From Acidobacteriota bacterium (GTDB lineage: Bacteria > Acidobacteriota > Blastocatellia > Pyrinomonadales > Pyrinomonadaceae): 64,000 nucleotides of DNA. Position 1 is the stretch's first letter. Each line of letters opens with the position of its first letter. This document shows positions 27,487-64,000 of the stretch, piece by piece. The position numbers were made by a program, and so were the translations under genes. Under the pieces are notes generated by a model. It saw only the letters and a program-made list of their open reading frames with translations, was not told the origin of the DNA and searched no databases. Location of the stretch: NCBI GenBank assembly GCA_025463135.1, contig JAOAPY010000039.1, forward strand, positions 62,001 through 126,000, in the 5' to 3' direction.

Positions 27487-27592
27487 GGGACCGCACGCCG
27501 CCGGCGTCCAGTAGCACAGACTTCAGTCTGTGTGGCCCTTCGAGACCACTCAGTTACAATTCCCCCACTAACACAGACTCAAGTCTGTGCTA
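27487..27592. repeat. Composite repeat: GGACCGCACGC half element plus 81-bp CACAGACT pair
   Basis: GGGACCGCACGCCGCC arm, then an 81-bp unit (27512-27592) made of two palindromes, CACAGACTTCAGTCTGTG and CACAGACTCAAGTCTGTG, about 35 bp apart. The last three bases are the complement of the TAG stop codon of the first permease gene. The spacer 30032-30138 has the same layout and unit length. Confidence 0.85.
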
Positions 27593-30019
27593 CTCGTAGC
27601 GCAGGGCCTCGAGTGGATCGACTTTCATCGCCCGGCGCGCCGGGAGATAGGTTGCCAGCAGTGCTACGCTCGTTAAGCCTATCGACACCACGACAAACGT
27701 AAACGGATCCGTGGCGCTCACCCCAAACAACAGATTCGTCAGCAGCCGCGTCAATGCAAAGGATCCGATCAACCCAATCACTACGCCGCTTCCCGCCAGA
27801 ATGAGTCCGCGTTTGAGCACCAGGCCAAGCACATCACGACCGCTGGCGCCCAGCGCGATGCGAATGCCGATTTCATTTGTGCGTTGCGTAACGGAGTAAG
27901 ACATAACGCCGTAGATCCCGACCGCGGCCAGCATGAAAGCCACTGAAGCAAAGATGCTGAGCAATACGGATGCAAATCGCGCCCGCGAAATCGAGTCAGC
28001 CATCAGAGATCGCATTGAGCGCATTTCTGAAATTGGCTGGTCCTTGTCGAGGGCCAGCACCTCGCGTTGAATCGCGCCCGACATCGCGGCGGGCTCAGAG
28101 CTGGTCCTGACAACCAACGTCAGCGGAAAGCCCGGCAACTCAGACTGCGGCCAATAGATCATTGCTTTCGTCGGCAGATCGAGCCCGATCGATTTCACAT
28201 CACCGACCACCCCCACAATCTCGCAGGGATCATTCTTCTCTTTCATGTCAATGGTCAGACGCTTGCCCAGGGGATCTTCGTTCGGGAAGTTCTGCCGCGC
28301 CAACGCTTCGTTGATGATGACCACGTGCGACTCTTTCTCAACTTCGCGGTCAGTGAAGTTGCGACCCTTGCGTAAGGGAATCGCCAGGGTTCGAAAATAA
28401 TCCTGATCGATTACCCGCACGTCGGTGACCGGCCTATCAGTAGGGGACAGCGCCGGTTTGCCTTCGATAATAAAGCCGGTCGCGGCTGGAACTCCGGTGA
28501 AAGGAGGTCCGCTGCCGACTCCCGCGGTGTTGACCCCCGGAAGTTGCCGGACGCGAGCCAACAACTTCTGAAAGAAATCCATTTTCTTTTGCGCATCAGG
28601 ATAATTAGCGCGCGGCAGCGACACCGCCACGGTGAGGACGTTGTCCGGAGCGAAGCCGGGGTCAACCGATTGCAATCGCTTCAAGCTCTTAATCATCAGA
28701 CCCGAGCCGATCAGCAACATCAATGAAAGCGCCACCTGGGCAACCACGAACCAGTTAAGCGCCCGATGGCTGCGGCCAGTTGTGCCGCGACTTCCTTCCT
28801 TCAAGGCTTCACTGGTTCTCGGCCGAGCGGACTCCCACGCCGGCAACAATCCAAAAATCATGCTGGTTAAAAACGACATGCCCAACGCAAAACCCAGCAC
28901 ACGCTTATCGATGTTTACTGTCGTAAAGGAAAGCAGATCGCGCGGGCTAATCGCCAGCAGCGCATCAATTCCCCAGCGAGTCAGCAACAGACCTACCAGG
29001 CAGCCCGCGAGGCCCAGCAGCAAACTCTCTGTCAGCAATTGACGAATAATGCGCGAGCGACCGGCGCCCAGCGCGGCGCGGATGGCGAACTCTTTTTGCC
29101 GCGCCACCGATCGGGCCAACAAGAGATTAGCGACATTAGCGCAAGCGATGAGCAGCACAAACCCAACCGCACCCAACAGAACCAATAAAGCTGGTCTCAG
29201 GTCGCCTGAGAATTGTTCATGCAGCGGCACCAGATTGATGCCCCAACCCTTATTGAAATCCGGATACTGCTGCTCGAGCCTGATGCCCAGCGCGTTCATA
29301 TCTGCGCGCGCCTGGTCGAGTGTCACACCAATCTTGAGCACCCCGATGGCGCTCATGAATCGTCCCTGGCGGACGCGTGCGTTCTGCGAGAAGGCCACAG
29401 GTACCCACAATTCCGGCGCTTTCTTGACGAAGGCATTTTCTTTGACGAAGAAATCAAACCCCTCCGGCATAACTCCAATGACCGTGTGCGACACGCCATC
29501 CAGCGCGAAAGTTTTACCGACGACCTTCCGATCGCCGCCGAAATGTTTTTGCCAGAAGCCGTACGTCAGAACGACAACGTTGTCCTTACCCCGCACACCA
29601 TCTTCCTCCACGAAAGTGCGGCCCAACAGCGGACGGCTGCCGAGCACGTCGAACAGGTTCGACGAGGCTGCCATCCCCGTGACCTCCTGGGGATCGCCCA
29701 ACCCGGTTAAGTTGTAAGGCGCGGCGAAAAAGGCCGACATGTCCTCAAACACATGGTTCTGCTCGCGCCAGTCAAAAAAGTTCGCTGTCGAAATGACATT
29801 ACGGTCCCTCGAACGAGGCCGGTTCTGTTCCCAAACCATCACCAGCCGGTTGCCGTTGGGATAAGGCAAAGCGCGCAGCAAAACTGTGTTCACTACGCTG
29901 AAGATGGCGGTGCTGGCGCCAATGCCCAGAGCCAGCGCGATCACAGCAATCACCGTGACCGCCGGTTTGTTGACCAGCATGCGAACGCCAAAGCGAATGT
30001 CTTTCCAAAGTGTTTCCAT
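27590..30019 (-). CDS. ADOP-family permease, copy 1 of 14
   Basis: Acidobacterial duplicated orphan permease: two MacB/FtsX-type halves in one chain, without its own ATPase gene. 809 residues from ATG 30019 (GAGGAGAG ribosome site; the frame to 30097 is rejected). TM1 at 20-42 ([18 protein letters not shown]), first MacB-like periplasmic domain about 45-270, first FtsX block 276-395 with coupling-helix motif [15 protein letters not shown] (306-320), then a second TM/periplasmic unit from about 415. The second unit has [11 protein letters not shown]; the final FtsX block (about 680-805) has TQRTNEIGIRIALGA. Ends [11 protein letters not shown]. Eight membrane spans expected in the inner membrane; transported substrate unknown. 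It is the most 3' gene of the array. Confidence 0.93.
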   Translation of the reverse strand: METLWKDIRFGVRMLVNKPAVTVIAVIALALGIGASTAIFSVVNTVLLRALPYPNGNRLVMVWEQNRPRSRDRNVISTANFFDWREQNHVFEDMSAFFAAPYNLTGLGDPQEVTGMAASSNLFDVLGSRPLLGRTFVEEDGVRGKDNVVVLTYGFWQKHFGGDRKVVGKTFALDGVSHTVIGVMPEGFDFFVKENAFVKKAPELWVPVAFSQNARVRQGRFMSAIGVLKIGVTLDQARADMNALGIRLEQQYPDFNKGWGINLVPLHEQFSGDLRPALLVLLGAVGFVLLIACANVANLLLARSVARQKEFAIRAALGAGRSRIIRQLLTESLLLGLAGCLVGLLLTRWGIDALLAISPRDLLSFTTVNIDKRVLGFALGMSFLTSMIFGLLPAWESARPRTSEALKEGSRGTTGRSHRALNWFVVAQVALSLMLLIGSGLMIKSLKRLQSVDPGFAPDNVLTVAVSLPRANYPDAQKKMDFFQKLLARVRQLPGVNTAGVGSGPPFTGVPAATGFIIEGKPALSPTDRPVTDVRVIDQDYFRTLAIPLRKGRNFTDREVEKESHVVIINEALARQNFPNEDPLGKRLTIDMKEKNDPCEIVGVVGDVKSIGLDLPTKAMIYWPQSELPGFPLTLVVRTSSEPAAMSGAIQREVLALDKDQPISEMRSMRSLMADSISRARFASVLLSIFASVAFMLAAVGIYGVMSYSVTQRTNEIGIRIALGASGRDVLGLVLKRGLILAGSGVVIGLIGSFALTRLLTNLLFGVSATDPFTFVVVSIGLTSVALLATYLPARRAMKVDPLEALRYE

Positions 30020-30031
30020 TGTTCTCTCCTC

Positions 30032-30138
30032 GGACCGCACGCCTCCGGCATGCAAAGTAGAACAGACTTCAGTCTGTGCGTCCTTCGTCCCGCTCAAGTC
30101 GCAGCTTCCCTCATTAACACAGACTGAAGTCTGTGCTA
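30032..30138. repeat. Composite repeat between copies 1 and 2
   Basis: GGACCGCACGCCTCC arm followed by the 81-bp unit 30058-30138, which carries two CAGACT(T/G)(C/A)AGTCTG palindromes. Ends on the TAG stop of copy 2. Matches 27487-27592 in order and length. Confidence 0.85.
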
Positions 30139-32532
30139 CTCGTAGCGCAACGCTTCAAGCGGATCGACTTTCGTGGCGCGGTGGGCCGGCAAATAGCACG
30201 CCAGCAGCGCCACGAAGATCAAAACACCAGAGACGACGGCGAAAGTCACCTTGTCCGTTGGCGTCACTCCGAATAGCAGAGTCGTCATCAGCCGGGTCAG
30301 CGCTACAGCGCCCGCCAGTCCGATCACCACTCCGATTAACGTCATGATCATTCCGCTTCGGATGATCAATTTCAGCACATCGGGTGCGCGCGCACCCAGC
30401 GCCATGCGGATGCCAATCTCCTGCGTGCGTTGCGTGACGGCATATGACATGACGCCGTAGATGCCGACTGCGGCGAGCACCAGCGCGAGGCCGGCAAAGA
30501 TCGCCAGCAGCAGCATGTTGAAGCTGCGCGCTGCAAATGAACTAGCCGCAACTTCATCCATCGTTTGGACTTTGGTTAAGGGCAACTGCGAATCGACTTT
30601 CCAGACCAGTTGCTTGATCGCCTGCGTCAAACTTCCCGGATCAGATTGCGTGCGCGCCACCAACGTCATCCAGCGCTTCCAGGGCTGAGCCTGCGTGTAT
30701 GGCGAATAAAGCCCCGGCTGCTCCGGCAGGTCGAGCCCGAAGTGTTTGACGTCGCCCACCACGCCGACGATGGTGATCCAATGCACCTGCGCATCGCGGG
30801 CCCAGCGAACGCGCTTGCCCAGAGGATCTTCATTGGGAAAATACTGGCGCACCATTGCGTCGTTGGCGATACCGACCAGGGGCGCGTTCTCCACAAAGTC
30901 CTGCGCGCCAAAGTCTCGGCCTGTGCGCAACGGAATCTGCATGGTATGAAAGTAGTCGCCCATGACACTGCGCGTTTCCAGGCTCGGCTCGTCACCGGGA
31001 GCGATCGGAGGTCGACCATCGATAACAAAATCGTGATTCAGAGAATCACCACTGAGCGGCAGTTCACTCACCATGGCAGCCTGCACCCCGTTCAAAGAGT
31101 TGATTGCCGCCAGCGCCTGAGTGCGAAAGCGGGTCTGCTTGTCGACTTCCTTATAGCGCGTCTCGGGTAATTCAACACGCATCGTTAATAAATGGGCAGG
31201 ATTGAAGCCGGGCTCGACTGAGCGTAGGTTCCGGAACGTCTTGATCAGCAAACCGGCGCCGACCAGCAAAATCAAAGCGACGGCGAGCTCCACGACTACA
31301 AAAGTGCTGCGCAACCTTTGTCGAGCGCCCCCGGCGGTTGCACTGCGGCCGCCTTCCTTCAACGCTTCGTTGACACCGCCGCGCGAGGCGGTCCACGCGG
31401 GCAACAATCCAAAAACCACGCCGGTCAGCAGCGAGATACCAAAAGTGAAAGCGAGCACGCGCACATCGACACCGATTTCCTGCAAGCGCGGCAGGTTATC
31501 CGGCTTTAACCACACCAGCAGGTTAGTGCCCCAGATTGCCAGCAGCACCGCCAGGGCCCCGCCGACCAGCGACACCAGCACGCTCTCAGTCAAAAGTTGG
31601 CGTATCAATCGCCAACGTCCAGCGCCCAGCGCGGCGCGGATCACAAACTCGCGTTCCCGCTCAGCGGAGCGCGCCAATAACAAATTTGCGAAATTCGCGC
31701 AGGCAATCAGCAGCACCAAACTTACGGCCGCGAACAATATCAGCAGGGACTGCCGCGACTGGCCCACAATGCGTTCATGGAGAGGAATCAGCACGGTACT
31801 CCGGTTCTTATTGTCGGCGGGATACTGCCGGGCCAGGTTCTGATCGATAACCTGCATCTCTGCGCGGGCTTGTTCCATAGTTACGCCGCCGGCCAGTCGT
31901 CCGTAGGTACGCAGAAAATGCACGCCACGAAAATTGGCCGCCACGGCATTCGACACATGGACCGGCGTCCATGCTTCAGTATTGTCGCGCGGTGAAGCGA
32001 AGCCCGCCGGCATGACACCGATAATCGTGTAGACGTTCCCGCTGAGCGGAACAGTCTTGCCCACGATCTGCTCGTCGCTGTTGAATTGGCGCCGCCACAA
32101 CGTCTGGCTCAGGACCACTACAAAGGGGCCGCCGGTTTTGTCATCAGCAGCAGCGATCGTGCGACCGCGTTCTGCCTTTACACCGAGCGTGTCGAAGAAC
32201 CCTCCGGTGACATGGCCGATCTGAATCTGGGTGGGTTCGCCGCCGGCGGTATAGTCCAGCGCCTGCCGCACTTCGCCGCCAAACCTGCTGAAGGTTTTGC
32301 TTTGCGCTTCAACGTCCGCGAGATCGGGAGCGGACTGGTTCGAACGAAGAGTAACGAGGCGGGCGGGTTCGTGATAGGCAAGAGGGCGCAGCAACACCGC
32401 ATTGATCACGCTGAAGATCGCGGTGTTAAGGCCGATACCCAGGCCCAGCGTAATTACGGCAATAGCCGTGAAGCCTGGCCGCTTGAGTAAACTGCGCACG
32501 CTGTAGCGAATGTCTCTTAGAAAAGTATCCAT
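30136..32532 (-). CDS. ADOP-family permease, copy 2 of 14
   Basis: 798 residues from ATG 32532, which has TGGAGA upstream; the longer frame to 32601 translates repeat DNA. Starts [21 protein letters not shown]. First coupling motif [18 protein letters not shown], second [19 protein letters not shown]. The second periplasmic domain carries [13 protein letters not shown]. An inter-half linker [17 protein letters not shown] is rich in Gly/Arg and cytosolic. Its C-terminal FtsX half is closest in wording to copy 1 ([17 protein letters not shown]), and both genes share the same 3' composite repeat. That fits duplication of a gene together with its downstream flank. Confidence 0.93.
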
Positions 32533-32693
32533 GATGTTTTCTCCAGATCGTGGATCTTGGTTCTTGCGTACTTTGTACTCTGTACTTTGATCTTGGTTCA
32601 TTGTTGTGGCTTCCTATCATTCTCGCCCGGTGTCAACCGGGTGAGAGTGAGAGAGAACCAGACTCAAAAGGCCTAAGGCCCAAGACTACTCGT
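32533..32693. repeat. Spacer with degenerate heptamers and a CCGGTGTCAACCGG hairpin
   Basis: TTGGTTC/TACTTTG-like 7-bp units, then at 32618-32650 a hairpin with stem CATTCTCGCCCGGT and its complement, then AAGGCCTAAGGCCC. Same hairpin family as 40499, 43341 and 53828. Confidence 0.75.
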
Positions 32694-35264
32694 CTATTCG
32701 TAGCGGAGCGCTTCCATCGGATCGACCTTGGCCGCGCGTCGCGCCGGGATGTAGCAAGCCAGGACCGCGACCACCAGTATCAGGAGCGAGACAACCACGA
32801 AGGTTGTGACATCCGTGGTTGTCACTCCGAACAGCATGGTCTTCATCAGCCGGGTCGCCGCGAAGGCCCCGGCCAATCCCAGCGCGATGCCGATCAACGC
32901 CAGCGTCGCGCCATTTCTGATCACCAGGCGCAGGACATCGATCGTGCGCGCGCCGAGCGCCATGCGAATGCCCATCTCGTGCCGGCGTTGCGTGACCGAA
33001 TAGGCCATCACTCCGTAAAGGCCGATTGCTGCCAGCAACAAAGCCAGGCCGCCAAAAAAGCTCACCAGCCCCGCAAAAGTACGTTCTTCCGTCAATGTTT
33101 GGCGGGTTTGTTTTATCTGCGTCGACACTCTGGTAACCGGTAGGTTCACGTCGGCATCGCGCACAATTTCACGAACGCCAGGCACCAAAGTCAGCGGATC
33201 GCCGGCGACCCGGACCGCAAAAAACATCTCGCCGACGTTCTCAATCTCCTGCTGCCACGGCGTATAGATCAAAGGTTCCGTATCATTGCGTTGGCTGTTG
33301 TATTTGATATCGCGCACCACGCCGATGATTTCTATTTTGCCGACGGACTTCGCATCCATCCCCACGCGCTTTCCGATGGGATCCTCGTTGGGAAAGAATT
33401 TTCGCGCCAGCGTTTCACTGACCATCGCTACTCGCGGCGCACGTTCGTCGTCCTGTGGTCCGAAACCACGACCACGCAACAGGGGGATTTCCATGGTCGC
33501 AAAATAGTTGTCCCTTACCGTTTGTACATTTGTTGAATGCTCTGCGGCTGATTCCTCAGTCTCTCCCGGCAGGATGAGCGAAGTGCTGTTTACGTAATTT
33601 GCTATGAGCGGAACATTCCCAAACGTAGCCGAACGCGCACCGGGTAAAGCATCGAGTCGTAGCCACAGTCGGTCATAAAACTGTTTCAGCTTTTCGTCCT
33701 TGTAACCAACAGCCGAAGGCTTGAGCGTGAAGAGCAGCAGATTTTCCTGGTTGAACCCCACGTCAACCCGTTCCAGATTCCGGAGCGTGCGCACAAACAA
33801 GCCCGCGCCTACCAACAGCACGAGAGACAGCGCTACTTGCGTGACCACCAGTGCTTTTATCAGCCGCGAACGGGCGATCCCGGTCCCTCCCCTATTGCTT
33901 AGCTTAAGCGCGCTGGTCAAATCCAGTTTAGTGGCTCGCCATGCCGGCGCCATCCCGAACAAAATTCCGGTGAAGAGCGATACGACAACAGTGAAGCCCA
34001 GCACGCGCCAATTCAGACTGTAGTCGTCACCGGGCGGCAGAAATGATCCCCGAGTTGAACCCATCGCTGCCAGTGCATCCTTACCCCAAAAGGCAACCAG
34101 CACTCCTGCCAATCCCCCCAACGAAGCCAGCAGCACGCTCTCGGTCAACAATTGCCGCACCAGGCGGCGGCGTCCAGCGCCCACTGCCAACCGCACAGTG
34201 ATCTCGGCTCCGCGCGAGGCTGAGCGCGCCAACAGCAGGTTGGCAACGTTCGCGCAGGCAATCAGCAACACCAGGCCTACGACGCCAAAAAGAAGATAGA
34301 GGGTATTTGAGTAGATCTTGCGCATTTCCCACATGCCGCGTTGGCCGGGAAGCGCAACCAGGATCGGAAAGTCCTTTGGTTCCAGCTGGGCAGTCTCATT
34401 TACTTTTTTCGGCGGCGGCATGATCTCCAACGCCAGTGCTTGAAATGATCCATTCAAGCTGTCGCGCGCTTGCGCGAATGTGGCGCCCGCCTTTAAGCGA
34501 CCCATCACGTGCAGCCACCACGAGCCGGGTTCGCCGTTCTTCCTAACCATAGCGCTGTTTTCGCCCATGATGAGCGGTTCAAAAGCAAGCGGCACCGAAA
34601 TGGCAGGACGATCGTCAACCTGCATCGTGCCGTTAAAACCCGCAGGGGTCACGCCGACGATGGTAAAACTGTTTTGATTGAGCTTTATTTGTTTTCCGAT
34701 CACGGCAGGGTCGGCGCCAAACCTCTCTTGCCAATAGACGTGACTGAGCATGGCTACCGGAGGCGCACTGGCGTCGTCATCCGTTTCTGTGATGGTCCGG
34801 CCTAAACGCGCCGGCACGCCGACGCCGGTAAAGTAACCTCCCGAAACCACTTGTACCTTTGCCAGTTCCGCCTGTCCCTCAATCAAAACGTTTTGCTCCC
34901 AAAGGTTCGCAAAGCCAAAGAGATCTGAAAGCGGAGTTTGCTGTGTCTTCACGTCACCACGCATCTTTTCGAAGAGGCGGTACTGGAAAGACGAGCCGCC
35001 GCGACGATCCGGCGGCAGACCACCAACAAAAATTCCGCGCTGGCCGGTGAGTCTGAAGGGCTTTCCGGCCTCCCAGTTGAACAGCACTAACCGTTCAGGA
35101 TCTTTGACCGGCAGTGTCTTTAACAACACCGCATCGACTGAACTGAACAGGGCCGTGTTGGCGCCGATCCCCAGCGCCAGAGATAGCACGGCGATCGCTG
35201 TAAAGCCCGGCGACTTCCGGATCATTCGCATTCCGTAACGCAAGTCCTGCCAAAGTTTTTGCAT
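32694..35264 (-). CDS. ADOP-family permease, copy 3 of 14 (long variant)
   Basis: 856 residues, the longest copy. Start MQKLWQDLRYGMRMIRKSPGF at ATG 35264 with AAGGAGAG upstream. The first periplasmic domain has an extra segment (FNWEAGKPFRLTGQRGIF, then GGLPPDRRGGSSFQYRLFEK, about 65-105) not found in copies 1 and 2, plus another about residue 270 (MPPPKKVNETAQLEPKDFP). First coupling motif is unusual, ASRGAEITVRLAVGAGRRR; second is [34 protein letters not shown] lies in the second periplasmic domain. This combination suggests a separate ADOP subgroup rather than a recent copy of its neighbours. Confidence 0.93.
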   Translation of the reverse strand: MQKLWQDLRYGMRMIRKSPGFTAIAVLSLALGIGANTALFSSVDAVLLKTLPVKDPERLVLFNWEAGKPFRLTGQRGIFVGGLPPDRRGGSSFQYRLFEKMRGDVKTQQTPLSDLFGFANLWEQNVLIEGQAELAKVQVVSGGYFTGVGVPARLGRTITETDDDASAPPVAMLSHVYWQERFGADPAVIGKQIKLNQNSFTIVGVTPAGFNGTMQVDDRPAISVPLAFEPLIMGENSAMVRKNGEPGSWWLHVMGRLKAGATFAQARDSLNGSFQALALEIMPPPKKVNETAQLEPKDFPILVALPGQRGMWEMRKIYSNTLYLLFGVVGLVLLIACANVANLLLARSASRGAEITVRLAVGAGRRRLVRQLLTESVLLASLGGLAGVLVAFWGKDALAAMGSTRGSFLPPGDDYSLNWRVLGFTVVVSLFTGILFGMAPAWRATKLDLTSALKLSNRGGTGIARSRLIKALVVTQVALSLVLLVGAGLFVRTLRNLERVDVGFNQENLLLFTLKPSAVGYKDEKLKQFYDRLWLRLDALPGARSATFGNVPLIANYVNSTSLILPGETEESAAEHSTNVQTVRDNYFATMEIPLLRGRGFGPQDDERAPRVAMVSETLARKFFPNEDPIGKRVGMDAKSVGKIEIIGVVRDIKYNSQRNDTEPLIYTPWQQEIENVGEMFFAVRVAGDPLTLVPGVREIVRDADVNLPVTRVSTQIKQTRQTLTEERTFAGLVSFFGGLALLLAAIGLYGVMAYSVTQRRHEMGIRMALGARTIDVLRLVIRNGATLALIGIALGLAGAFAATRLMKTMLFGVTTTDVTTFVVVSLLILVVAVLACYIPARRAAKVDPMEALRYE

Positions 35265-43133: not shown

Positions 43134-43674
43134 GAATTCTCTCCCTGGGACCGCTCGCATACTGATGTTCAAGAAGGTCTTTGGACTTTGGTCTTTGGAC
43201 TTAGGGTCTTTGGTCTTTGGATCTTTGGTCTTTGGGTCTTAGTTCTTAGTTCTTAGTTCTTAAAAGGGGGTTCCTGGTTCTTTGCCCTTTGCCCTTTGCC
43301 CTTTGCCCTTTGCCCTTTGCTCTTTGCTCTTTGGTTTCATCTCATTCTCACCCGGTTTCAACCGGGTGATACTCATGCGCCATTTTTTGATCAACCGTTT
43401 CAACGGTTTCCCCAGCACGCAACGTGAAGCGACTCTGACTGACCTCAGGAAACCGTTGAAACGGTTCAGAGTTACGAGAGCCGGCTCGCTCCACCCGGTT
43501 GAAACCGGGTGAGAATGAGATGAAACCAAAGAGCAAAGGGCAAAGAGCAAAGACCCTAAGACTTGAGACCAAACAACCAAGAACTGAGAATTGAAAACTG
43601 AAAACTAAGAACGAACCCGAACTAACACCCAAAGACCAAAGACCAAAGTCCCAAGTCCAACCCCCAAGACCTTC
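43134..43674. repeat. 541-bp spacer: nested mosaic of heptamer arrays and palindromes
   Basis: No gene. From outside to inside: TTTGGTC/TTAGTTC/CTTTGCC heptamer arrays (43175-43335) face their complements GACCAAA/AGAACTG/AAAGGGC (43527-43670). Inside these lie an inverted pair of CTCATTCTCACCCGG hairpins (43341-43374, 43491-43520), and innermost AACCGTTTCAACGGTT (about 43395) and AACCGTTGAAACGGTT (about 43450). A half GGACCG(C)ACGC-like arm sits at 43144. Confidence 0.88.
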
Positions 43675-46140: not shown

Positions 46141-46279
46141 GATGCCCTCCTTTGGTCTTGGGTCTTTGGTCTTTGGTCCTGAGGTCTTTTCACTAATAGG
46201 TTTCAAGCTCTACAGGGAGAACTAAGAACCAAGAACTAAAGATCCAAAAACCAAAGACCAAAGACCAAAGACCCAAGAC
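46141..46279. repeat. Spacer of opposed heptamer arrays
   Basis: TTTGGTC units at about 46150-46180 face CCAAAGA/AGAACCA units at about 46220-46278, forming a long hairpin that ends next to the copy 8 stop. Confidence 0.8.
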
Positions 46280-53922: not shown

Positions 53923-56322
53923 TCATTCATATCTCAGTGCCACCAGCGGATCGACTTTCGTTGCCCGTCGCGCCGGGATGTAGCAGGCCAGCAACGCGAC
54001 CACCAGTAATGCGAGAGCGACCAGCACAAACGTGGTCGCGTCAGTCGTCGAAACTCCAAATAAGAGACTTGCCAGCAAACGCGTCAGCGCGAATGCTCCG
54101 GCCAACCCCAGCGCTATCCCCACCACCACGAGCTTTAGTCCCTCGCCCATGAACAGCTTCAACACATCGCGCCTCTGCGCGCCGATGGCCATGCGAATTC
54201 CCACCTCATGCGTGCGTTGCACTACCGTGTACGAGGTCACGCCATACACACCAATCGCGGCCAGCAACATAGCGAGCCCGGCGAAAATAGAAAGCAACCC
54301 GGTGCTGAATCGTTTCGGTGAAACTTCACGGGCCAGGACGTCGTCGAGCGTGGCGATTTCCGTAACCGGGAGGTCTTTGTCCAGCGCGTGAATTTCGCGC
54401 GTGATAGCGGCAACCAGGTTTTGCGGATCAGCGTTGGTGCTGCGCACTGAGAGCACCGCGTTTCGCTGCGCCGCCCGACCCATGGGTGTGTAGATCTTGA
54501 TCAGCGGTTTGGCATCCGACCCATAAATTTTTACTTCCTTCACTACGCCGATGACTTCGTGCCAGACGGGGCTGTCGTACTTGATGTGCTTGCCCACTGC
54601 TTCCTGATTGGGCCAGAAACGTCGCGCGAGATTCTCGTCGATTAAGAGCACAGGCTTGCCCTGCTGATCCTCGTCGCGGGTAAAGGTCCGGCCTTTGACG
54701 ATGGGGATTTTCATCGTCTTGAAATAGTCGGCACTGACGATGGACCAATCGACATTGTTCAATTCGTCCTGCTGTAGTGGGGCTTGTCCTTCGGCAAAGA
54801 TGTCGTTGGTCCAACCGCTGCCGAAGCCCGGTAACTCTGCCGAGAGAGTGGCCGACTCAACGCCCGGTTGGGCCCCCACCTGGTCCAGTATCTGTTGCAA
54901 CAGCCGAGCCAGTTCCCCCGGTCCTCGATATCTGCCGCGCGACACTTTGAGGTCCATCGTCAGCACATTGTGCGGCTCGAAACCAACCGGCGAGGTGGAC
55001 AAACGCAACATGCTCTTGAGCAGCAGTCCGGCGCCGGCCAGCAGGGCGACTGAGAGCGCAACTTCGGCGATCACCAGCGCGCCGCGCAGTCTCTTTCCTT
55101 CTCTCTCACTCGTGGTCGCACCGCTGTCCTTGAGGGTTTCCTGCAGCTCTGCTTTGGAGAAACGCCAGGCGGGTGCCAAACCAAACAGAAGTCCACTCAA
55201 CACTGAAACCAGCAGATTGAATCCCAGCACCTGATAGCTGAGGTGCAACCCGTCGAGCCGGGGAATCGTTTCGTGTGCTACTCGGGCCAGCAGCGCTGTG
55301 CTCCATGAGGCCAGCAGCAAAGCGAACAGTCCGCCTGCCAATGACAGCAGCAGACTCTCAATCAACATCTGCCTGATGATGCGGACCCGCGTGGCGCCGA
55401 GTGCGGCGCGCACCGCGAACTCTTTTCTTCTGGTGGCCGCGCGCGCCAACAGCAGGTTCGCAACGTTGGCACAGGCAATCAGCAGCACCAGGCCGACGGC
55501 GCCGAAAAGAATCAGCAGTGCGGGGGCGACATTTCCGGTGATGCTGTCTTGCAGCGAGATCACATTCACGCGGTCGGCGCCCGCGTTCGTTACCGGATAT
55601 TCGCGCGCCAGTTGCTGAGCTATGCCGTTGATTTCGGCACGCGCCTGTTCGATCGTCACTCCAGGCCGAAGTCGCGCGATTACGTTTCCGGCAATGCGCA
55701 CGTCTCGCTGCTTCCAGTCCTGCGGGCCAACCGGCAGCCACAATGGCGGTGGTCCCTGATGCACGAAGCTTCGGGGCATCACGCCAATCACCGCGTAAGC
55801 CCGATCGTCGAGCATGATCGTCTTGCCCACGATACTCGGGTCACCGCCAAATTGGTTTTGCCAGAAACTCTGGCTCAGTATCGTCACCGGTCCGGCGCCC
55901 GGCTTGTCATCATCCGCGGTAAATGATCGTCCCAGCAGTGGCGTTACTCGCATCACTTTGAAATAGTCGGCCGCCACCATGCGCGCATTCAGGTTCAACG
56001 GTTGGTCCGTGCCGGTCATCGTGACGGACCAGCCGCGAAACGTCGACATCGCTTCAAAGCTCTTGCTGCGCTCGCGCCAATCGACAAAGTTGGGATAGGA
56101 CGGCCAGCGACTGGCGACGTCCGGACCGGATTCATTCATCCACACCAGTCGATCCGGTTCCGCGTAGGGCAGTGGCCTTAACAACACGGCATTGATGACA
56201 CTGAACATGGCCGTGTTGGCGCCGATACCCAGCGCCAGCGTAACGAGGGCCAGCGCGGTGAGGCTGCGGCGCTTAAGCAGGCTGCGCACGCCATAGCGAA
56301 TGTCCTTTATTAATGAGTCCAT
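53923..56322 (-). CDS. ADOP-family permease, copy 11 of 14
   Basis: 799 residues, start [21 protein letters not shown] at ATG 56322; only AAAAG lies upstream, part of a heptamer-rich spacer, so translation may be weak. First coupling motif [19 protein letters not shown]; second [19 protein letters not shown]. The second periplasmic domain has [15 protein letters not shown]. Linker [18 protein letters not shown] is acidic/basic rather than Gly-rich. Ends [13 protein letters not shown]. Confidence 0.93.
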
Positions 56323-56449: not shown

Positions 56450-58912
56450 CTACTCGTACCGCAGCGCCACCAGCGGATTGACCCTCGTGGCTCTGCGCGC
56501 CGGGACCAGGCAAGCTACAAACGCCACCAGCGCCAGCAACAAAGGAACCGCAATGAAAATCGTCATGTCATAAGCGCTCACGCCGATCAAAACTGACGAG
56601 AGCACGCGCGACAACCCCAGCGACAATACAAATCCGATGACGATGCCGATCACCGCCAGCTTCATTCCCTGAATGGTGATCATTTTCAACACGTCCGCTC
56701 GTTTCGCGCCCAGCGCCATGCGAATACCAACCTCGCGCGTGCGCTGGGAAACGACATAGGCCATCACGCTGTAGAGCCCAACCGCGGATAACAACAGCGC
56801 GACTAAAGCAAACGCCAGCGACAAAGTGGCCGCCATGTTCGGCGCCCAGAGAGGCCAACTCATATGCTCGTTCATCGTCTTTATCGCGAATAAAGGAATG
56901 CGGCGATCGAGGGCCTCAACTTCTGTGCGAATCGCACCCACCAAACTGTGCGGATCGCCGGCGGTACGCACCATCAGGGTCATGCCGTCCGCACCGCGCT
57001 GGGCCATGGGCGAGTAGTAATAGGGTCGAGGATCTTCGGCGAGCGCGCGATATTTGCCTGTCTTGGCTATGCCGACGACTTCGAGCGCATTGGGACTGTT
57101 GGGACCGACAAAAATGTGTTTACCGAGCGCGCTTTCTCCCGGCCAAAGCATCTGCCCCATCCGCTCGTTAACAATGATGACGCGCTGCGCGCCCTTACGA
57201 TCGCGTTCGTCAAAATCGCGACCGGCCAGCAGAGGGATTTGCAAAGTCTTGAAGTGACCCGGGCTGACAACATTATTCATGATGTTGCGGCCCGCGCTGC
57301 CGGGCGCCAGTTGTTCGCCCTCTTTGAGGATTGGACCATTCGAGTTTGAGCTATCACTCAAAGGTACCAGCCGCCCCACACTCGCCGCCTGGACGCCCGG
57401 CAAACTGCCGGCGCGTTCCACTATCTGCGTAAAAAAGTTTTTGGTCCGAGCTTCGTCATAGCCGATCAGTTGTGGGTTCAATGAAACCAACAGCACGCCC
57501 TGCGGATTAAAACCCGGATCCATTTTTTGCGCGTTGCGAAAACTCTTGATGAAGAGACCGCCGCACACGAGCACCACGAGCGACAACGTCACCTGGGCCA
57601 CCACCAATGAGTTGCGCAAGGTGAAGCGACGGGCTTTTCCTGTCCGGTCGCCGCCGGCATATCCTTTCAACACCGGCACGATATCGGGGTTCGAAGCGTG
57701 CCAGGCCGGGGCCAGGCCAAAGACGAGTCCGGTAGCGAGCGAGACGACGAGAGTAAAGACCAGGGCTCGACCATCGAGCGCAAAGAAATCGTTGAGCATG
57801 TTGTAGGGCAGGTCGGGAACAAAGGCCTGCATCAGCCCCGTCACCCAATACGCCAGCAAAAGCCCCAGGCCGCCACCGAGAATTGAAAGCAGCAGACTCT
57901 CCGTCATTAGCTGTCTGATCAAACGCCCGCGTCCGGCGCCGAGCGCCAGGCGCACACCGATCTCTTTGCGACGCGAGGCGGCGCGGGCCAGCAGCAGATT
58001 CGCAACGTTCGCACAGGCGATCAGCAGAATCAGTCCAGTGATCGCCAGCGCGATCGCCGCGCCACTTTTCATGATCGGCGCCGCCTCGTCCCAACGGCCA
58101 TCGATCTCTGTCTTCACTACGGCGCGAGTTGTGCCGGCGCGATTATCGGGATAGGTCTGATTCAAGCGTTGCGCAATCGCAGACATTTCCGCCGAAGCCT
58201 GGGCCAGCGTTACGCCGGGCTTCAAACGTCCCACCACTGTCATCCAGTGACTGCCGCGCTCGCTCAATAATTTTGGGTCGCGTCGCAGTTCTTCGGCCAT
58301 CGCCATCGGCGCCCAAAAATCCAATGACAAACCAAACTTCGTTCCCCTGAAAGATTCCGGGGTGATCCCGATCACGGTGTAAGAGCGATTGTTGAGTTCG
58401 AGCGTTTTGCCGACGATGTTTGGATCAGAGCCCAAGCGACGCTGCCATAGGCTGTAGCTGAGCAAGACGACGGGATGGGCGCCCAGGGCCTTGTCTTCAT
58501 CCGCCGCGAATGAACGACCGAGCACCGGCTTGACGCCCAACATGTCAAAGTAATTGCCGCTGACGACCTGGCCCCAGATTACATCGTTCTGGTTTTGCGT
58601 GCTGATTGCCGCCTGGGTCATGTCTTCGCCTACCAGATTTTCAAATACCGTGCTCTGGTCGCGATACTCGACAAAATCCGGATAGGAAAAGGTGTCCGTC
58701 GAGCCGCGATCGTCGGTGGTCTCGAAGGGACGGACCAGGCGACCGGGCTCCGCCACGGGAAGGGGTCGCATAAGAAAGGCGCTCACTCCGCTGAAGATTG
58801 CCGTGTTCGCGCCAATCCCCAGGGCCAGCGCCAGCACCGCCACGATCGTGACGCCGGGCGATTTCAACAGCAGGCGGATTCCGTAACGAAGATCTTTGAT
58901 GAATGTGTTCAT
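56450..58912 (-). CDS. ADOP-family permease, copy 12 of 14
   Basis: 820 residues from ATG 58912, starting MNTFIKDLRYGIRLLLKSPGV. The frame continues to 59017 but there translates AAAGAAC heptamers (KNKEQRTKNKEQRAEYKTK) and is rejected; no clear ribosome site. First coupling motif [19 protein letters not shown]; second [19 protein letters not shown]. The first periplasmic domain carries ETTDDRGSTDTFSYPDFVEY, and the second LWPGESALGKHIFVG. C-terminus [13 protein letters not shown] has Asn for Asp. Sequence wording differs from its neighbours and suggests a separate subgroup. Confidence 0.92.
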   Translation of the reverse strand: MNTFIKDLRYGIRLLLKSPGVTIVAVLALALGIGANTAIFSGVSAFLMRPLPVAEPGRLVRPFETTDDRGSTDTFSYPDFVEYRDQSTVFENLVGEDMTQAAISTQNQNDVIWGQVVSGNYFDMLGVKPVLGRSFAADEDKALGAHPVVLLSYSLWQRRLGSDPNIVGKTLELNNRSYTVIGITPESFRGTKFGLSLDFWAPMAMAEELRRDPKLLSERGSHWMTVVGRLKPGVTLAQASAEMSAIAQRLNQTYPDNRAGTTRAVVKTEIDGRWDEAAPIMKSGAAIALAITGLILLIACANVANLLLARAASRRKEIGVRLALGAGRGRLIRQLMTESLLLSILGGGLGLLLAYWVTGLMQAFVPDLPYNMLNDFFALDGRALVFTLVVSLATGLVFGLAPAWHASNPDIVPVLKGYAGGDRTGKARRFTLRNSLVVAQVTLSLVVLVCGGLFIKSFRNAQKMDPGFNPQGVLLVSLNPQLIGYDEARTKNFFTQIVERAGSLPGVQAASVGRLVPLSDSSNSNGPILKEGEQLAPGSAGRNIMNNVVSPGHFKTLQIPLLAGRDFDERDRKGAQRVIIVNERMGQMLWPGESALGKHIFVGPNSPNALEVVGIAKTGKYRALAEDPRPYYYSPMAQRGADGMTLMVRTAGDPHSLVGAIRTEVEALDRRIPLFAIKTMNEHMSWPLWAPNMAATLSLAFALVALLLSAVGLYSVMAYVVSQRTREVGIRMALGAKRADVLKMITIQGMKLAVIGIVIGFVLSLGLSRVLSSVLIGVSAYDMTIFIAVPLLLALVAFVACLVPARRATRVNPLVALRYE

Positions 58913-59098
58913 TTTGGTTTTGTACTCGGCTCTCTGTTCTTTGTTCTTTGTTCTTTGTTCTTTGTTCTTTGTTCTCCGACCGGGGTCTGGCTTGGTTTCC
59001 TGGTTATTCAGATTCATGTGCCGCTACAAAAACAAAGTACCAAGCACCAAGAACGAAGAACACAAATTCAAAAACCAAAGACCAAAGACTTAAGACCA
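58913..59098. repeat. 186-bp spacer of opposed TTTGTTC and GACCAAA heptamer arrays
   Basis: At least six TTTGTTC/TTGTTCT units (58937-58978) face AAGAACG, CAAGAAC and AAAGACC units (59038-59096). It lies between the copy 12 start and the copy 13 stop. Confidence 0.85.
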
Positions 59099-61501
59099 TC
59101 ATTCGTAGCGCAGCGCCACGAGCGGATCGACCTTCGTCGCTCGTCTGGCCGGCAGGTAACATGCCAGCAGCGCCACCGCGATCAAGAGCAAAGAAATCCC
59201 CGCAAAAGTCAGCGGGTCGGTCGTGCTCACCTGATAGAGCAAACTGGCTATTAAGCGCGTCAATAGCCACGCGGAGACGAGCCCCAACCCCACGCCCGTC
59301 AGGACCAGAAGCATTCCCTGCTTTAAGACCAGGCCCAGGATGTCGCCCATTTGCGCGCCCAACGCCATGCGAATGCCAATTTCCTGCGTTCGTTGATTGA
59401 CCAGATAACTGATCACGCCATACAGACCAATCATCGTCAGCACGAGAGCTAACGAGGCGAAGATTCCCATGAGGGCCATCAGGAATTTTCGATCGGCCAC
59501 CGTGCGATTCACGAGAAACTCGACGGTGCGGACTTTCCACATTGGTTGATCCGGATCGATTTTCCAGACAGCCTGGCGCACCGACTCAGCGAGACTCAAA
59601 GGTTCGACACTGGTGCGGATCACGACAGATGAAAAGATGCCCGGGTTCTGACTGAAGGCGCTGTACATCTGCGGCTTTGTTTCCTCTTCCAGCCAGTAGT
59701 GTTTGGCGTCGCCTACCACACCGATGACGGTCCCCGTCGTCCCATCGTCAGCCAATTTGATCTGCTTGCCGAGCGGATCCTGATTGGGCCAGAAGCGGCG
59801 CGCCATGGTTTGATTGATGATGAAAACGATCGGCGTCTTGAGTTGGTCCTGGTCGTTGAAGAGACGACCTTTGACGAAGGGGATGCCGATGGTTTCGAAA
59901 TAATTCGGCATCGCCGTATTGATCATCACCTGGGGTTCCTGACCTTTCTGCGGGGGCTCGCGATCAGGCAGGATGATCGGGCTGGTACCGCCGTTGCCGC
60001 TGAAGGGCAAAGCTCGCACCAGCGCTACCGACGTCACGCCGGGCACTTGCTGGATTTTCTCGGCTACCTGCCGGTGAAAATTCCATTGGACGGCGGGCTC
60101 TTTGTATTTATTGCGCGGGAGCCGGTATTCGAGACTGAGCAGTCGCTCCGGTTTGAAGCCAACGTCGACGCGGAGCAGCTTGTCAAAGCTGCGTATTAAC
60201 AGTCCGGCGCTGACGAGCAGAAGCAGGGAAAGCGCAACCTGGCCCACGACGAAACCACTACGCACACGGTTCCACCTAGCTCCTCCACCACTGCCGCGCG
60301 CGCCTTCTTTCAAGAACGACTGCAACTGCGGTCTTGCCAACTGCAAGGCGGGCACCAAACCAAAAAGCCAACCAGTCAATACTGAGACTGCCAGTCCGAA
60401 CAGCAACACGCGTGTTTCCAGTGTGACGCTTTCCGCGCGCACGAAGTTTTGCGGCAACTTGAGCAGCGCATACAAACCCCAGTACGCGAGTAACAAGCCA
60501 ACCGCGCCGCCGACCAAACTAATCAGAGTCGTCTCAGTCAACAGTTGACGAATGAGCCGCCAGCGGCTTGCCCCCAGGGCCGCGCGCACTGCTATCTCCC
60601 TTTGCCGCGCCAGTCCGCGGGCCAAAAGTAGATTCGCCAGGTTCGCGCAGGCGATAAGCAGAATCACGCCGACAGCCGCGAACAACAACCAAAGCATCGG
60701 CCGAATATCGCCCACCACCAAATCGCGAAAAGATTCCAACCTGGCGCTGCGACCAGCGTTCTCTTTCGGATATGCCTGGGCCAATCGGCCGGCAATCGTG
60801 GCTGCTTCGGCTTGTCCCTGTGACAAGCTGATGCCTGGCTTTAGATGGCCCATGCCAAACAGGAACCGCGCCTCTCGTTGGCCGGTGTTGCCGGGATAAT
60901 TCGACATCGGCATCCATACTTCGACTTCAACATCGAGGGGATTTTTGAAGCTGGCGGACACCACGCCGATCACGCTGTAAGGCTCGCCATTCAGGATCAG
61001 CTTTCTGGATCCCAGATTGCGATCGCTGTTCAAGCGTTCCTGCCAGGTCTTCTCGTTAATGACTGCCACTTTCTCCGCGCCCTGACGGTCCTCGCCGTCA
61101 GCAAACGTTCGTCCGAGCAGGGGGGAGAGATTGAAGACTTTGAAAAAATTTGCCGAGACAAAAGCGCCGCGCACTCGATCGGGCCGTTCGCCGCCCGTCA
61201 GGTTGACACTCTGAGTCTGAAAGGCAGCCAGGTCCTCGAACGCGGTGGCGCCAGCCTGGAACTCCTGCGCTTCCGGAATCGATAGTCCGTCGCGCTCGCC
61301 GGCGGAATCGGTGGTGGAAAGGACCACCAGTCGATCGGAATTGTGATAGGGCAAAGAGCGCAACAAGACAGCATTGACCACGCTGAAGATCGCGGTGTTG
61401 GCGCCGATACCCAGCGCCAGTGTGATCACGGCCACGATTGTGAATAGCGGCTTCTTTGCCAGCATGCGCGCGCCGTAACGCAGGTCTTGTTGCAGTATCA
61501 T
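59099..61501 (-). CDS. ADOP-family permease, copy 13 of 14
   Basis: 800 residues from ATG 61501 (GGGAGGG upstream; the frame to 61525 begins within a repeat arm). Start MILQQDLRYGARMLAKKPLF. First coupling motif [19 protein letters not shown]; second [19 protein letters not shown]. The second periplasmic domain has FWPNQDPLGKQIKLA. Linker LKEGARGSGGGARWNRV resembles that of copy 5. FtsX helix residues read MIGLYGVISYLVNQRT. Ends [13 protein letters not shown]. Confidence 0.93.
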   Translation of the reverse strand: MILQQDLRYGARMLAKKPLFTIVAVITLALGIGANTAIFSVVNAVLLRSLPYHNSDRLVVLSTTDSAGERDGLSIPEAQEFQAGATAFEDLAAFQTQSVNLTGGERPDRVRGAFVSANFFKVFNLSPLLGRTFADGEDRQGAEKVAVINEKTWQERLNSDRNLGSRKLILNGEPYSVIGVVSASFKNPLDVEVEVWMPMSNYPGNTGQREARFLFGMGHLKPGISLSQGQAEAATIAGRLAQAYPKENAGRSARLESFRDLVVGDIRPMLWLLFAAVGVILLIACANLANLLLARGLARQREIAVRAALGASRWRLIRQLLTETTLISLVGGAVGLLLAYWGLYALLKLPQNFVRAESVTLETRVLLFGLAVSVLTGWLFGLVPALQLARPQLQSFLKEGARGSGGGARWNRVRSGFVVGQVALSLLLLVSAGLLIRSFDKLLRVDVGFKPERLLSLEYRLPRNKYKEPAVQWNFHRQVAEKIQQVPGVTSVALVRALPFSGNGGTSPIILPDREPPQKGQEPQVMINTAMPNYFETIGIPFVKGRLFNDQDQLKTPIVFIINQTMARRFWPNQDPLGKQIKLADDGTTGTVIGVVGDAKHYWLEEETKPQMYSAFSQNPGIFSSVVIRTSVEPLSLAESVRQAVWKIDPDQPMWKVRTVEFLVNRTVADRKFLMALMGIFASLALVLTMIGLYGVISYLVNQRTQEIGIRMALGAQMGDILGLVLKQGMLLVLTGVGLGLVSAWLLTRLIASLLYQVSTTDPLTFAGISLLLIAVALLACYLPARRATKVDPLVALRYE

Positions 61502-61515
61502 TTCTTTTCCCTCCC

Positions 61516-61642
61516 GGGACCGCACGCATCCTGCGTGCTGTGTTTGCCAAAGAAAGCACGGGTGCTTGGGTTGCCAAGGTTAAAAGTCGATCCCAGTCCG
61601 CTCCTTTCCCAGGAGCTCAGCACGCAGGAGGCGTGCGGTCCC
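61516..61642. repeat. GGACCGCACGC element (127 bp)
   Basis: Inverted ends GGGACCGCACGCATCCTGCG and CGCAGGAGGCGTGCGGTCCC, with about 80 bp inside. Its right end is 5 bp from the copy 14 stop, its left end at the copy 13 ribosome site. Confidence 0.85.
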
Positions 61643-61647
61643 AGGGA

Positions 61648-64000
61648 CTACTCGTAGCGCAGCGCCGCGAGCGGATCGACTTTTGTCGCGCGCCGCGCCG
61701 GGATGTAACACGCCGCCAGCGCCACGGCGATCAATCCCAGCGCAACCAGTGCAAACGTTGCTGCGTCCGTGGGCCGCACTCCGAACAACAAGGTCGTCAT
61801 CAAACGCGTCAGTGCGAATGACCCCGCCGACCCCGCGGCCACGCCCACGAGCGCGAGACTCATTCCATTTCCGATAACCAGCTTCAGCACGTCTGAAGCG
61901 CGAGCTCCCAGTGCCATGCGGACGCCGATTTCACGAGTACGTTGAGTAACCGCATAAGACATCACTCCATAAATCCCGACTGCCGCCAGCAACGCTGCCA
62001 GGGCCGCGAAACCCGCGAGCAAGAATGTCGTGAACCGCTGCGGCGCCACCAACTCAGAGACGGTCGTCTCGAGAGTCTTGAAGGAATGGATGGGCTGGTT
62101 CTTGTCTATAGCCGCCAGCTCAGCACGGATCGGGGCAGTCAGCTTTACGGGATCACCCGACCGGGAGCGCACCAACAGCGACATTGATCCCCAGTTGACT
62201 TGCAAGTAAGAGACGTAGACCTGCGGAACGGCCTCGCCGGAAAGATCCCAATACTTCGCTCCACCAACGACGCCGACGACCTCCCATGTCTTATTCCAGA
62301 AGTGAAGATGCTTGCCTAGCGGGTTCTCATCGGGAAACTCTCGGCGAGCCAGGCTCTCATCGACAATGGCCACACCCGTCGCACCTTGCGCATCACGCTC
62401 ATCGAACGTTCGCCCGGCGCGCAGCGGAATTCCCATGGCGCGAAAGTAGTCGCCGCTCACTTGATTCGTCTGCGCTTGTCGTTGCTGCTCCGGAGAAATT
62501 GGCGGATGCTCATCGATACTGATTGGGGATGACGAATTCAAGCTGTTGATGATTCCCGCGTGACCTACTCCAGGAATTGCTGATACTCGAGCAAGTAATT
62601 CCTTATAGAAGGCGCTGACCTGGGCCGGCTCTTTGTAATTGTCTCCGGCAGGATCGATCTGAGCGGTCAACACACCGGCAGGCTCGTAACCCGGGTTGAC
62701 ATGGGCCAGGCGCCAGAAGCTCTTGATCATCAATCCGGCTCCCACCAACGTCACCATCGCCAGCGTGACCTCGGCGACTACGAGCACTGAGCGAAATTTA
62801 TTGCGATGCCCGGCAGTTCGCCCACCCTCTTTCAGCTCTTCGTTGAGATCTACTCGCGACAACTGCAGCGCCGGTATCAAACCAAATAGAAGGCTGGTCA
62901 AGAGCGACAGTCCCAGCGTAAAACCAAGCGCGGTGGCATCGATCTTCAAGTGCGCCACGCGCGAGTTTGCATTAACCAGGTATTCAGGCAGGCCGGTCGT
63001 AACGAACTGGATCATCCAATTGGCGAGCAGTAATCCAGCGGCGCCGCCGGCAAGCGACAGCACCGCGCTTTCCAGCAGCAATTGACGCGCGAGGCGTAAC
63101 CGGCCGGCGCCGAGCGCCGCACGAACGGCCAACTCACGACGTCTCACGGATCCGCGGGCCAGGGTTAGATTGGCCACGTTGACACAGGCGATGAGCAATA
63201 CAAATCCAACCGCGGCAAACAACAGCAGCAGCAGCGGCCGCACTTCTTTACTCAAGAGAGTCTGAGGAGGACTCAGCCGGACGTGCATGTTTACTTTTGG
63301 ATTGTTGATGAACGCTAATGAAGCTCGATCGGCATCGGCCATAGCCTGTTCATTTGAAACGCCGGGCTTCCGTCGTGCGAGCAACTCCAGATAATTCGCA
63401 TTGCGCTCATTCGCTTCGGCCACGGTGAAGGCCAGTGGTGCCCACAGGTCAGTTTTGTTGTAGTAACGAAAATCCGGCGGCAGCACACCAACAACGGAAT
63501 AATCTTCACCATTGAGAGTGAGCTTGCGTCCCAGAACATTTCGGTCACCGCCAAACCGTCGTTGCCACAGTGCGTGGCTCAATACTACAACTCGATTTGC
63601 GCCGGGCCGATCCTCTTCGGCAACGAAGGTGCGCCCTACTTCCGCGTTTACGCCGAGTAGCGGAAAGAGATTTGCTGAAACCTGAAAACCTTGCAGCCTC
63701 TCCGGCTCACCCGCGCCGGTCAAGTTCGCCGGCCAGCCCTTGTTGCTGAGCGCCGCGATATCAGTGAAGACAGTATTGTTACTCCTCAAGTTATGATAAG
63801 CCGCGGGCGAAAAAGGAAATCTCGATTCCGCCGCGTCACCGCCGCTGCTGAGGTAAATGCCCGCCAACTCGCCGGCGTTCGCATAAGGCAGCGGCTGCAG
63901 TAAGACGGCATTTACCACACTGAAGATAGCGGTGTTCGCACCTATCCCCAGCGCCAGCGTCAGAACGGCAATCAAGGTGAAGCCGGGATTTTTCCATAGC
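61648..64000 (-). CDS. ADOP-family permease, copy 14 of 14, 5' end outside the window
   Basis: The frame is open to the right edge; the last visible codons read LWKNPGFTLIAVLTLALGIG, i.e. about 10-15 residues are missing at the N-terminus. First coupling motif [19 protein letters not shown]; second [19 protein letters not shown]. The second periplasmic domain is shorter than in the other copies and has EFPDENPLGKHLHFW and SSSPISIDEHPPISPEQQRQ. Linker LKEGGRTAGHRNKF. Ends ATKVDPLAALRYE. Whether further copies lie beyond the edge cannot be told. Confidence 0.92.
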   Translation of the reverse strand, partial: LWKNPGFTLIAVLTLALGIGANTAIFSVVNAVLLQPLPYANAGELAGIYLSSGGDAAESRFPFSPAAYHNLRSNNTVFTDIAALSNKGWPANLTGAGEPERLQGFQVSANLFPLLGVNAEVGRTFVAEEDRPGANRVVVLSHALWQRRFGGDRNVLGRKLTLNGEDYSVVGVLPPDFRYYNKTDLWAPLAFTVAEANERNANYLELLARRKPGVSNEQAMADADRASLAFINNPKVNMHVRLSPPQTLLSKEVRPLLLLLFAAVGFVLLIACVNVANLTLARGSVRRRELAVRAALGAGRLRLARQLLLESAVLSLAGGAAGLLLANWMIQFVTTGLPEYLVNANSRVAHLKIDATALGFTLGLSLLTSLLFGLIPALQLSRVDLNEELKEGGRTAGHRNKFRSVLVVAEVTLAMVTLVGAGLMIKSFWRLAHVNPGYEPAGVLTAQIDPAGDNYKEPAQVSAFYKELLARVSAIPGVGHAGIINSLNSSSPISIDEHPPISPEQQRQAQTNQVSGDYFRAMGIPLRAGRTFDERDAQGATGVAIVDESLARREFPDENPLGKHLHFWNKTWEVVGVVGGAKYWDLSGEAVPQVYVSYLQVNWGSMSLLVRSRSGDPVKLTAPIRAELAAIDKNQPIHSFKTLETTVSELVAPQRFTTFLLAGFAALAALLAAVGIYGVMSYAVTQRTREIGVRMALGARASDVLKLVIGNGMSLALVGVAAGSAGSFALTRLMTTLLFGVRPTDAATFALVALGLIAVALAACYIPARRATKVDPLAALRYE

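Follow-up and report, generated by a model that had tools for sequence, protein, structure and literature searches.

ADOPs are generally described as a family of permeases without ATPase neighbors, whose genes essentially never adjoin genes for ABC ATPases. Here we describe an array of ADOP genes in the 6.48-Mb genome of a member of the Acidobacteriota (Pyrinomonadaceae) that departs from this description, in that the permease genes, here and in relatives, have genes for a pair of ATPases and an adaptor linked to them. The array takes up one end of a 64,000-base stretch of DNA (the window; bases 62001-126000 of the 148,565-base contig JAOAPY010000039.1, here C29). It runs on beyond the window to the ATPase genes (ATP1 and ATP2) and a gene for a HlyD/MacA-type adaptor (MFP), and its other end adjoins genes for a response regulator (RR) and for a histidine kinase (HK); these five names are coined here. 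We think it likely that the array is the permease bank of one MacB-like export machine whose members share a dedicated motor. By sequence the genes are to be filed as ADOPs, and the system as a further form of type VII ABC machine. A search of the open-licence literature found no report of ADOP-ATPase linkage or of a conserved motor cassette. With an adaptor and a pair of ATPases linked to them and inherited together with them, "orphan permeases" to which no function was attached become open to test by deletion of a single gene.

Several described systems resemble this one in part. Like MacAB-TolC, the system encoded here has an HlyD/MacA-type adaptor, MacB-like periplasmic domains, and MacB-type ATPases; MacB is an ATPase fused to a four-helix permease, whereas here the permeases are fused in pairs and the ATPases are encoded in separate genes. 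E. coli YbbAP is not known to have an adaptor or a bank of permeases. It resembles ADOP in carrying two MacB-like permeases in one chain served by a separate ATPase, according to a section of one published account (PMC5985334); the same section gives YbbP two linking helices, whereas the model of array copy A05 lacks the extra pair, its second half following directly on the first. Fused permease pairs always have their ATPase as a separate protein in that section's account (PMC5985334), a rule that ADOPs with separate ATP1 and ATP2 would fit.

There is also some likeness to the darobactin exporter DarBCD: among NCBIfam models, ATP1 and ATP2 each match DarD best, and for MFP DarC ranks second. 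All of the equivalog cut-offs are missed, however (DarD, 251-257 of 375 bits; DarC, 95.5 of 450; DarB, 27-44 of 700). For the sharing of a motor, group II ECF transporters provide a precedent among importers. MsmK (PMC4519317) and MceG (PMC9947336) are each described, in excerpts of the two sources, as one ATPase for several transporters. These importers belong to other ABC types, whereas the machine proposed here would be a type VII exporter. ADOPs occur as large families in Acidobacteriota, and sizable sets have been recorded: excerpts report 102 ADOPs in one acidobacterial genome, 80 of them transcribed and with no more than a general transport role suggested (PMC10564751), and 28 and 33 ADOPs, as annotated by RAST, in two Dyadobacter (PMC11573002).

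Permease Array and Linked Genes

Fourteen minus-strand open reading frames (ORFs) of 783 to 856 residues occupy window positions 27590-64000: A01 (27590..30097), A02 (30136..32601), A03 (32694..35264), A04 (35359..37797), A05 (37964..40408), A06 (40710..43172), A07 (43675..46206), A08 (46280..48682), A09 (48813..51260), A10 (51276..53732), A11 (53923..56322), A12 (56450..59017), A13 (59099..61525), and A14 (61648..64000, cut by the window end and complete in the segment L002). Contig C29 runs on for 22.6 kb past the window edge and adds six further minus-strand ADOPs (A15-A20; C29:126182-141884), giving 20 uninterrupted copies on 52,295 bases, 94.5% of them coding. Intergenic gaps measure 15 to 502 bases among the first 14 genes and -64 to 502 across all 20.

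After A20, on the same strand, come two LolD/MacB-type ABC ATPases matching ABC_tran: ATP2 (221 residues; L003:4303-4968, where L003 starts at C29:138001) and ATP1 (252 residues; L003:4965-5723), which overlap by 4 bases. MFP follows (419 residues; L003:6037-7296, minus strand), matching HlyD_3 and RND_mfp and scoring 101.3 bits against the TIGR01730 cut-off of 94.9. A 21st ADOP (A21; L003:7792-10245, minus strand) stands last. Directly downstream of A01 lies RR (26037..27413, minus strand), an NtrC-type sigma-54 response regulator of 458 residues with Response_reg, Sigma54_activat, and HTH_8 domains; the next gene is HK (24525..25946, minus strand), a sensor histidine kinase of 473 residues with HATPase_c over its cut-off and HisKA just under.

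All 21 copies pass the curated cut-off of the ADOP model TIGR03434 (622.3 bits) with matches of 932-1063 bits over the full model (A01, 1006; A05, 1063). Genome-wide, 26 proteins pass: the 21 on C29 and 5 solitary ones, each on a different contig elsewhere. A Pfam scan of two array copies gave two MacB_PCD and two FtsX stretches in each.

An earlier note, made from the window alone, had described 14 consecutive minus-strand genes of about 800 residues with the double MacB/FtsX architecture of ADOPs and no other kind of gene among them. This description holds for all 14, and the unbroken row extends to 20. The note had also reported that no ATPase was present, an impression that arose because the window edge cut the row before the motor genes; ATP1, ATP2, and MFP lie just outside, between A20 and A21. 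It had named as a refutation the finding that ATPase genes interleave just outside and that the genes are ordinary MacB-type permeases: the ATPases are there, but TIGR03434 identifies the permeases as true ADOPs. The array it called strikingly long and pure is longer than stated (20 + 1 copies), but such length is not unique, since 16 and 14 copies occur elsewhere. Of the two array ends that the note had proposed to find by extending the contig, the one at RR and HK lies inside the window; the other is still open because C29 stops 320 bases past A21.

The copies differ throughout, as the note had said, with pairwise identities of 34-51% (median 43%, n = 21), and the longest exact word common to two copies, one overlapping ORF pair excepted, is 37 bases. 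We built a tree with 117 ADOPs, made up of the 21 array copies, 5 others of the same genome, and 91 of relatives, from which 24 of 120 long ORFs were left out as matching too weakly or over too short a length. The nearest relative of an array copy belongs to another genome in 19 of 21 cases, is a solitary ADOP of the same genome in 2, and is never an array mate, which bears out the note's view that this is not one recent amplification. Nor does order in the array follow relatedness, a possibility the note had raised: the 20 neighboring pairs have a mean distance of 1.79 against 1.76 for all pairs (shuffle p = 0.88). Recent tandem amplification is rejected on the identities and on the neighbors being no closer than random pairs.

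Similar long arrays exist in relatives. One, from another family (G013), spreads 16 copies over 53 kb, not all of them contiguous, and neighbors there are slightly closer than random (p = 0.04). Nine reciprocal pairs join it to the array described here, at 44-64% identity; conserved gene order is rejected (rho -0.02 over these pairs). With the nearest relatives outside the array and the order differing, the set is old, reshuffled, and kept. A Pyrinomonadaceae metagenome-assembled genome (G405, contig C15:4628-39737) carries an unbroken row of 14 ADOPs on 35 kb. On contig C36 of the present genome (L015, 5782-8475, minus strand) a solitary ADOP has an extended N-terminus (897-residue ORF), and ahead of it on that strand lies one of the genome's three PadR matches; the ADOP perhaps represents a second style.

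Permease Fold and ATPase Signatures

An AlphaFold2 model of A05, built from an alignment of 74 ADOPs (pLDDT 91.6, pTM 0.86), shows two MacB-like four-helix units with eight long helices in all and a periplasmic domain after helix 1 of each unit. Short helices at residues 309-317 and 719-727, one per half, are in what we take to be the place where MacB-type proteins contact their ATPase (the coupling helices). In the model, the type VII ABC (MacB superfamily) layout of four helices, periplasmic domain, and coupling helix occurs twice per chain. The coupling-helix motifs are strongly conserved: a fixed pattern matches the first half of 18 and the second half of 20 of the 21 array copies, and 87 and 93, respectively, of 96 other ADOPs. 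The best fold match is E. coli YbbP (Z 24.7, rmsd 11.0, 660 residues aligned), followed by BceB and MacB; Z scores against YbbP, BceB, MacB, and LolC are 17-25, in match lists that leave room for other families. By sequence, the nearest solved structure to A09 is MacB (5gko).

The two ATPases differ consistently. In counts that include overlapping loci, the D-loop reads NLDS in 97 of 99 ATP1 sequences and [NS]LH in all 36 ATP2 sequences shown, of 40, and the signature reads LSGGQQQRV in 97 of 99 ATP1 and LSGGQQQLV in 38 of 40 ATP2. This suggests that ATP1 and ATP2 are two specialized subunits; whether they form a heterodimer is a matter of about even odds.

The Motor Cassette in Other Genomes

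Homologs of the cassette stand at the ADOP arrays of relatives, with identities of 75-84% for ATP1, 69-73% for ATP2, 67-70% for RR, 58-65% for HK, and 55-62% for MFP. In one relative (G010) the order is MFP, ATP1, seven ADOPs, RR, HK, ATP2; in G013 the array is framed by HK, RR, and ATP2 at one end and ATP1 and MFP at the other. We also scanned named genomes with ATP1 and kept the best 80 of at least 593 related stretches, a sample thus chosen by likeness to ATP1. Acidobacteriota account for most of them; the others belong to Verrucomicrobiota, Gemmatimonadota, Lysobacterales, Myxococcota, and a few further groups. The cassette, whole or partial and in varying order, recurs in all five named groups. 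Full cassettes are found, for example, in a member of the Spartobacteria (L078), one of the Gemmatimonadaceae (L124), and Edaphobacter (L127), and two Myxococcaceae loci have only ATP1-ADOP or MFP-ATP1-ADOP.

An ADOP lies within 1.5 kb of ATP1 at 55 of the 80 loci, anywhere in the flank at 62, and at 54 of the 68 loci with at least 2.5 kb downstream; these counts come from six-frame labels and include partial ADOPs. MFP is present at 71 loci, ATP2 at 28, RR at 31, and HK at 29; contig ends truncate many of the loci. We followed 11 of the 18 loci that lack an ADOP, and in every case the genome has ADOPs at other places, between 1 and at least 40 of them. Three such loci (L069, L072, and L098) have the order MFP-ATP1-ATP2-RR-HK with no recognized MacB-like permease. 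Another MacB-like permease in place of ADOP was considered and rejected, none being recognized in 14 ADOP-free loci by likeness to two ADOP references, where the other genes are mostly unnamed.

Presence of the motor follows that of the permeases. In a first set of genomes (the present one and 19 relatives; cut-offs of E <= 1e-90 for ATP1 and E <= 1e-75 for ATP2), ATP1 occurs in 11 of 20, all among the 13 with ADOPs, and ATP2 in 8 of these 13; neither occurs in the 7 genomes without ADOPs. One genome scored as ATP1-negative (G012) has the gene split over two contig ends. ADOP-positive genomes of this set carry from 1 to at least 29 ADOPs, and presence and absence recur inside a single family (f1; 8 genomes with ADOPs, 5 without) and even a genus (g3), where one genome has both ATP1 and ADOP and one has neither.

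Across 396 genomes of the phylum, the present one included, 138 have ATP1 and ADOP, 11 ADOP only, 1 ATP1 only, and 246 neither; two of the 11 ADOP-only genomes carry partial pieces of ATP1 (74-77%). A single ATP1 match at threshold is found in 131 of the 139 ATP1 genomes. ATP2 occurs in 100 genomes, 95 with ADOPs and 92 with ATP1; in those 92 the two ATPases share a contig in 58 and lie within 20 kb in 56, taking one ATP1 place per genome. In the present genome, ATP1 and ATP2 alone among 58 ABC_tran matches over cut-off lie less than 5 kb from an ADOP, the next being at 5.2 kb.

Regulation and Possible Cargo

The RR loop reads GAFTDA in 41 and GAYTDA in 3 of the 44 sequences collected. With all loci taken together and overlapping loci included, sigma-54-like sites with at most one mismatch occur in the 400 bases upstream of 24% of 84 MFP genes, compared with 1.2% in shuffled sequences; the same scan gives 0 of 97 for ATP1, 4% of 258 for ADOP, 10% of 39 for ATP2, 2% of 43 for RR, and 3% of 38 for HK.

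Several neighboring genes provide hints of cargo. A TolC-type outer-membrane efflux (OEP) gene lies directly upstream of MFP at 2 of 10 scanned loci, chosen from 47; at the present locus, A21 and then the contig end lie there. Contig C24 of the same genome (L014, 109-14336) encodes in one row a nonribosomal peptide synthetase (NRPS), a major facilitator superfamily transporter, an ADOP, and a lantibiotic dehydratase, and then continues with a gene of like size and start; the row makes up a mixed peptide cluster that has an ADOP to itself. In the genome that holds the unbroken row of 14, a homolog of ATP1 is followed by genes for ornithine carbamoyltransferase, ornithine cyclodeaminase, a TauD-type oxygenase, and an NRPS (L067, 1289-11983). 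The likeness of the ATPases to DarD is a further hint. The linked ATPase pair and adaptor point to peptide or secondary-metabolite export in a soil phylum with little-explored chemistry.

Proposed Export Machine and Its Alternatives

We propose that the array is a store of permeases for a single export machine of the MacB/YbbP-like kind (type VII ABC). Because each ADOP consists of two fused MacB-like permeases, one chain would form a complete membrane part needing two outside ATPase subunits, and ATP1 and ATP2, whose genes lie beside that of the periplasmic adaptor MFP at the array head, would supply them. RR and HK, a two-component system with a sigma-54 activator at the array tail, probably set expression. 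The same small motor set would be common to all array copies and probably also to the genome's scattered ADOPs, so that the cell could vary the periplasmic, substrate-facing half while keeping the motor constant; this proposal agrees with the earlier note's suggestion of an envelope transport set whose members differ in their periplasmic parts. The best, though indirect, evidence for such use in trans is that motor loci without an ADOP sit in ADOP-bearing genomes. The likeliest cargo would be peptides or other secondary metabolites, the cell's own or foreign, passed from the periplasm to an outer-membrane channel.

A broader version may hold or fail with equal probability: about one ATPase and adaptor set per genome would power dozens, perhaps more than 100, double permeases that can stand in for one another, some with their genes in arrays and others dispersed beside their biosynthetic clusters. 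If true, this would be the export counterpart of the shared-motor vitamin importers.

Several observations weigh against the proposed machine or restrict it. ADOPs are missing from 18 of the 80 ATP1 loci, and no ATPase match lies within 5 kb of the five ADOPs outside the array. Three ADOP-only genomes of one genus (G020, G035, and G048), two of them more than 90% complete, yield 122-235 ADOP candidates each, in first-look counts of which a part was scored, and no close ATP1; they have just a 59-61% relative of it, with no ADOP or MFP in the 2.2-3.7 kb around, and ATP2 is present in two of them. Conversely, one ATP1 genome and five ATP2 genomes have no ADOP at E <= 1e-150. The co-occurrence of ATP1 and ADOP has a Fisher P of 3e-92, a value that ignores shared ancestry and, with related genomes counted as independent, comes out too small. 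ATP2 is undetected at E <= 1e-75 in 47 of the 139 ATP1 genomes, so a fixed ATP1-ATP2 heterodimer would not be general, and for relatives with fused permeases, such as YbbP, an ATPase homodimer is assumed. With gaps reaching 502 bases, transcription of the array as one unit is doubtful. The window is not enriched in sigma-54 sites (31 against 38.4 expected), a count on which a promoter of this kind before each ADOP there is rejected, and the region upstream of the present MFP has only sites with two mismatches.

Among the alternatives, the one that survives best grants that ADOPs are powered as proposed and assigns them mechanical work in the envelope with no export, either extraction of lipids or lipoproteins (as by LolCDE and YbbAP) or the driving of cell-wall enzymes (as by FtsEX). 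It draws on the closest fold being that of YbbP, whose complex is described in an excerpt of one source as a lipid hydrolase complex (PMC12646458). The HlyD/MacA-type adaptor linked at 71 of 80 loci, the outer-membrane efflux genes upstream of it, and the links to NRPS and lantibiotic genes argue for export, and we regard purely mechanical work as rather unlikely.

A second alternative, also unlikely and a little more so, is that the motor serves one or a few neighboring ADOPs while the others use other LolD-type ATPases or are true orphans, the array being a bank of paralogs beside an unrelated efflux operon. Some of the genome's 58 ABC_tran matches could serve in this way, and the ADOP-free ATP1 loci and the ADOP-rich genus without a close ATP1 would be readily explained. 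Against it, the presence of ATP1 and ADOP agrees in 384 of 396 genomes, also inside one family; ADOP-free motor loci sit in ADOP-bearing genomes in every case followed; nearly all ATP1 genomes have one ATP1 match; and most copies retain the docking motif in each half. We judge it very improbable that ADOPs need no ATPase and serve as sensors or scaffolds, with the adjoining ATPases as chance neighbors: the family name and the five ADOPs with no ATPase match within 5 kb favor this, but it conflicts with the co-occurrence, the linkage, and the conservation of both ATPase-docking helices. That the array is an assembly artefact, as the contig end 320 bases past A21 might suggest, has almost no probability, the copies being just 34-51% identical and arrays of the same kind occurring in other genomes.

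Neighboring Genes and Repeats

Two TIR-domain genes lie near HK, at window positions 23022-24467 (minus strand) and 21735-22523 (plus strand); one of the pair is fused to an FGE-sulfatase domain and the other has a PcrA/UvrD tudor-like end, and a role in signaling or defence is possible. The Acido-Lenti-1 small RNA model matches at window positions 20719-20765 on the minus strand (38.6 bits; cut-off, 37).

A guessed repeat pattern gave no matches in the sequence. Dispersed repeats occur in the gaps between ADOPs, for example at window positions 43176-43661, 46154-46280, 40609-40707, and 40499-40534. Tracts of GGTCTTTGG give 19 overlapping matches, 3 of them outside the array, and CTGGGACCGCACGC elements give 12, some beyond the array; a palindrome with 17-base arms is also among the intergenic repeats. 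It is possible that these repeats act as seeds for recombination in the array.

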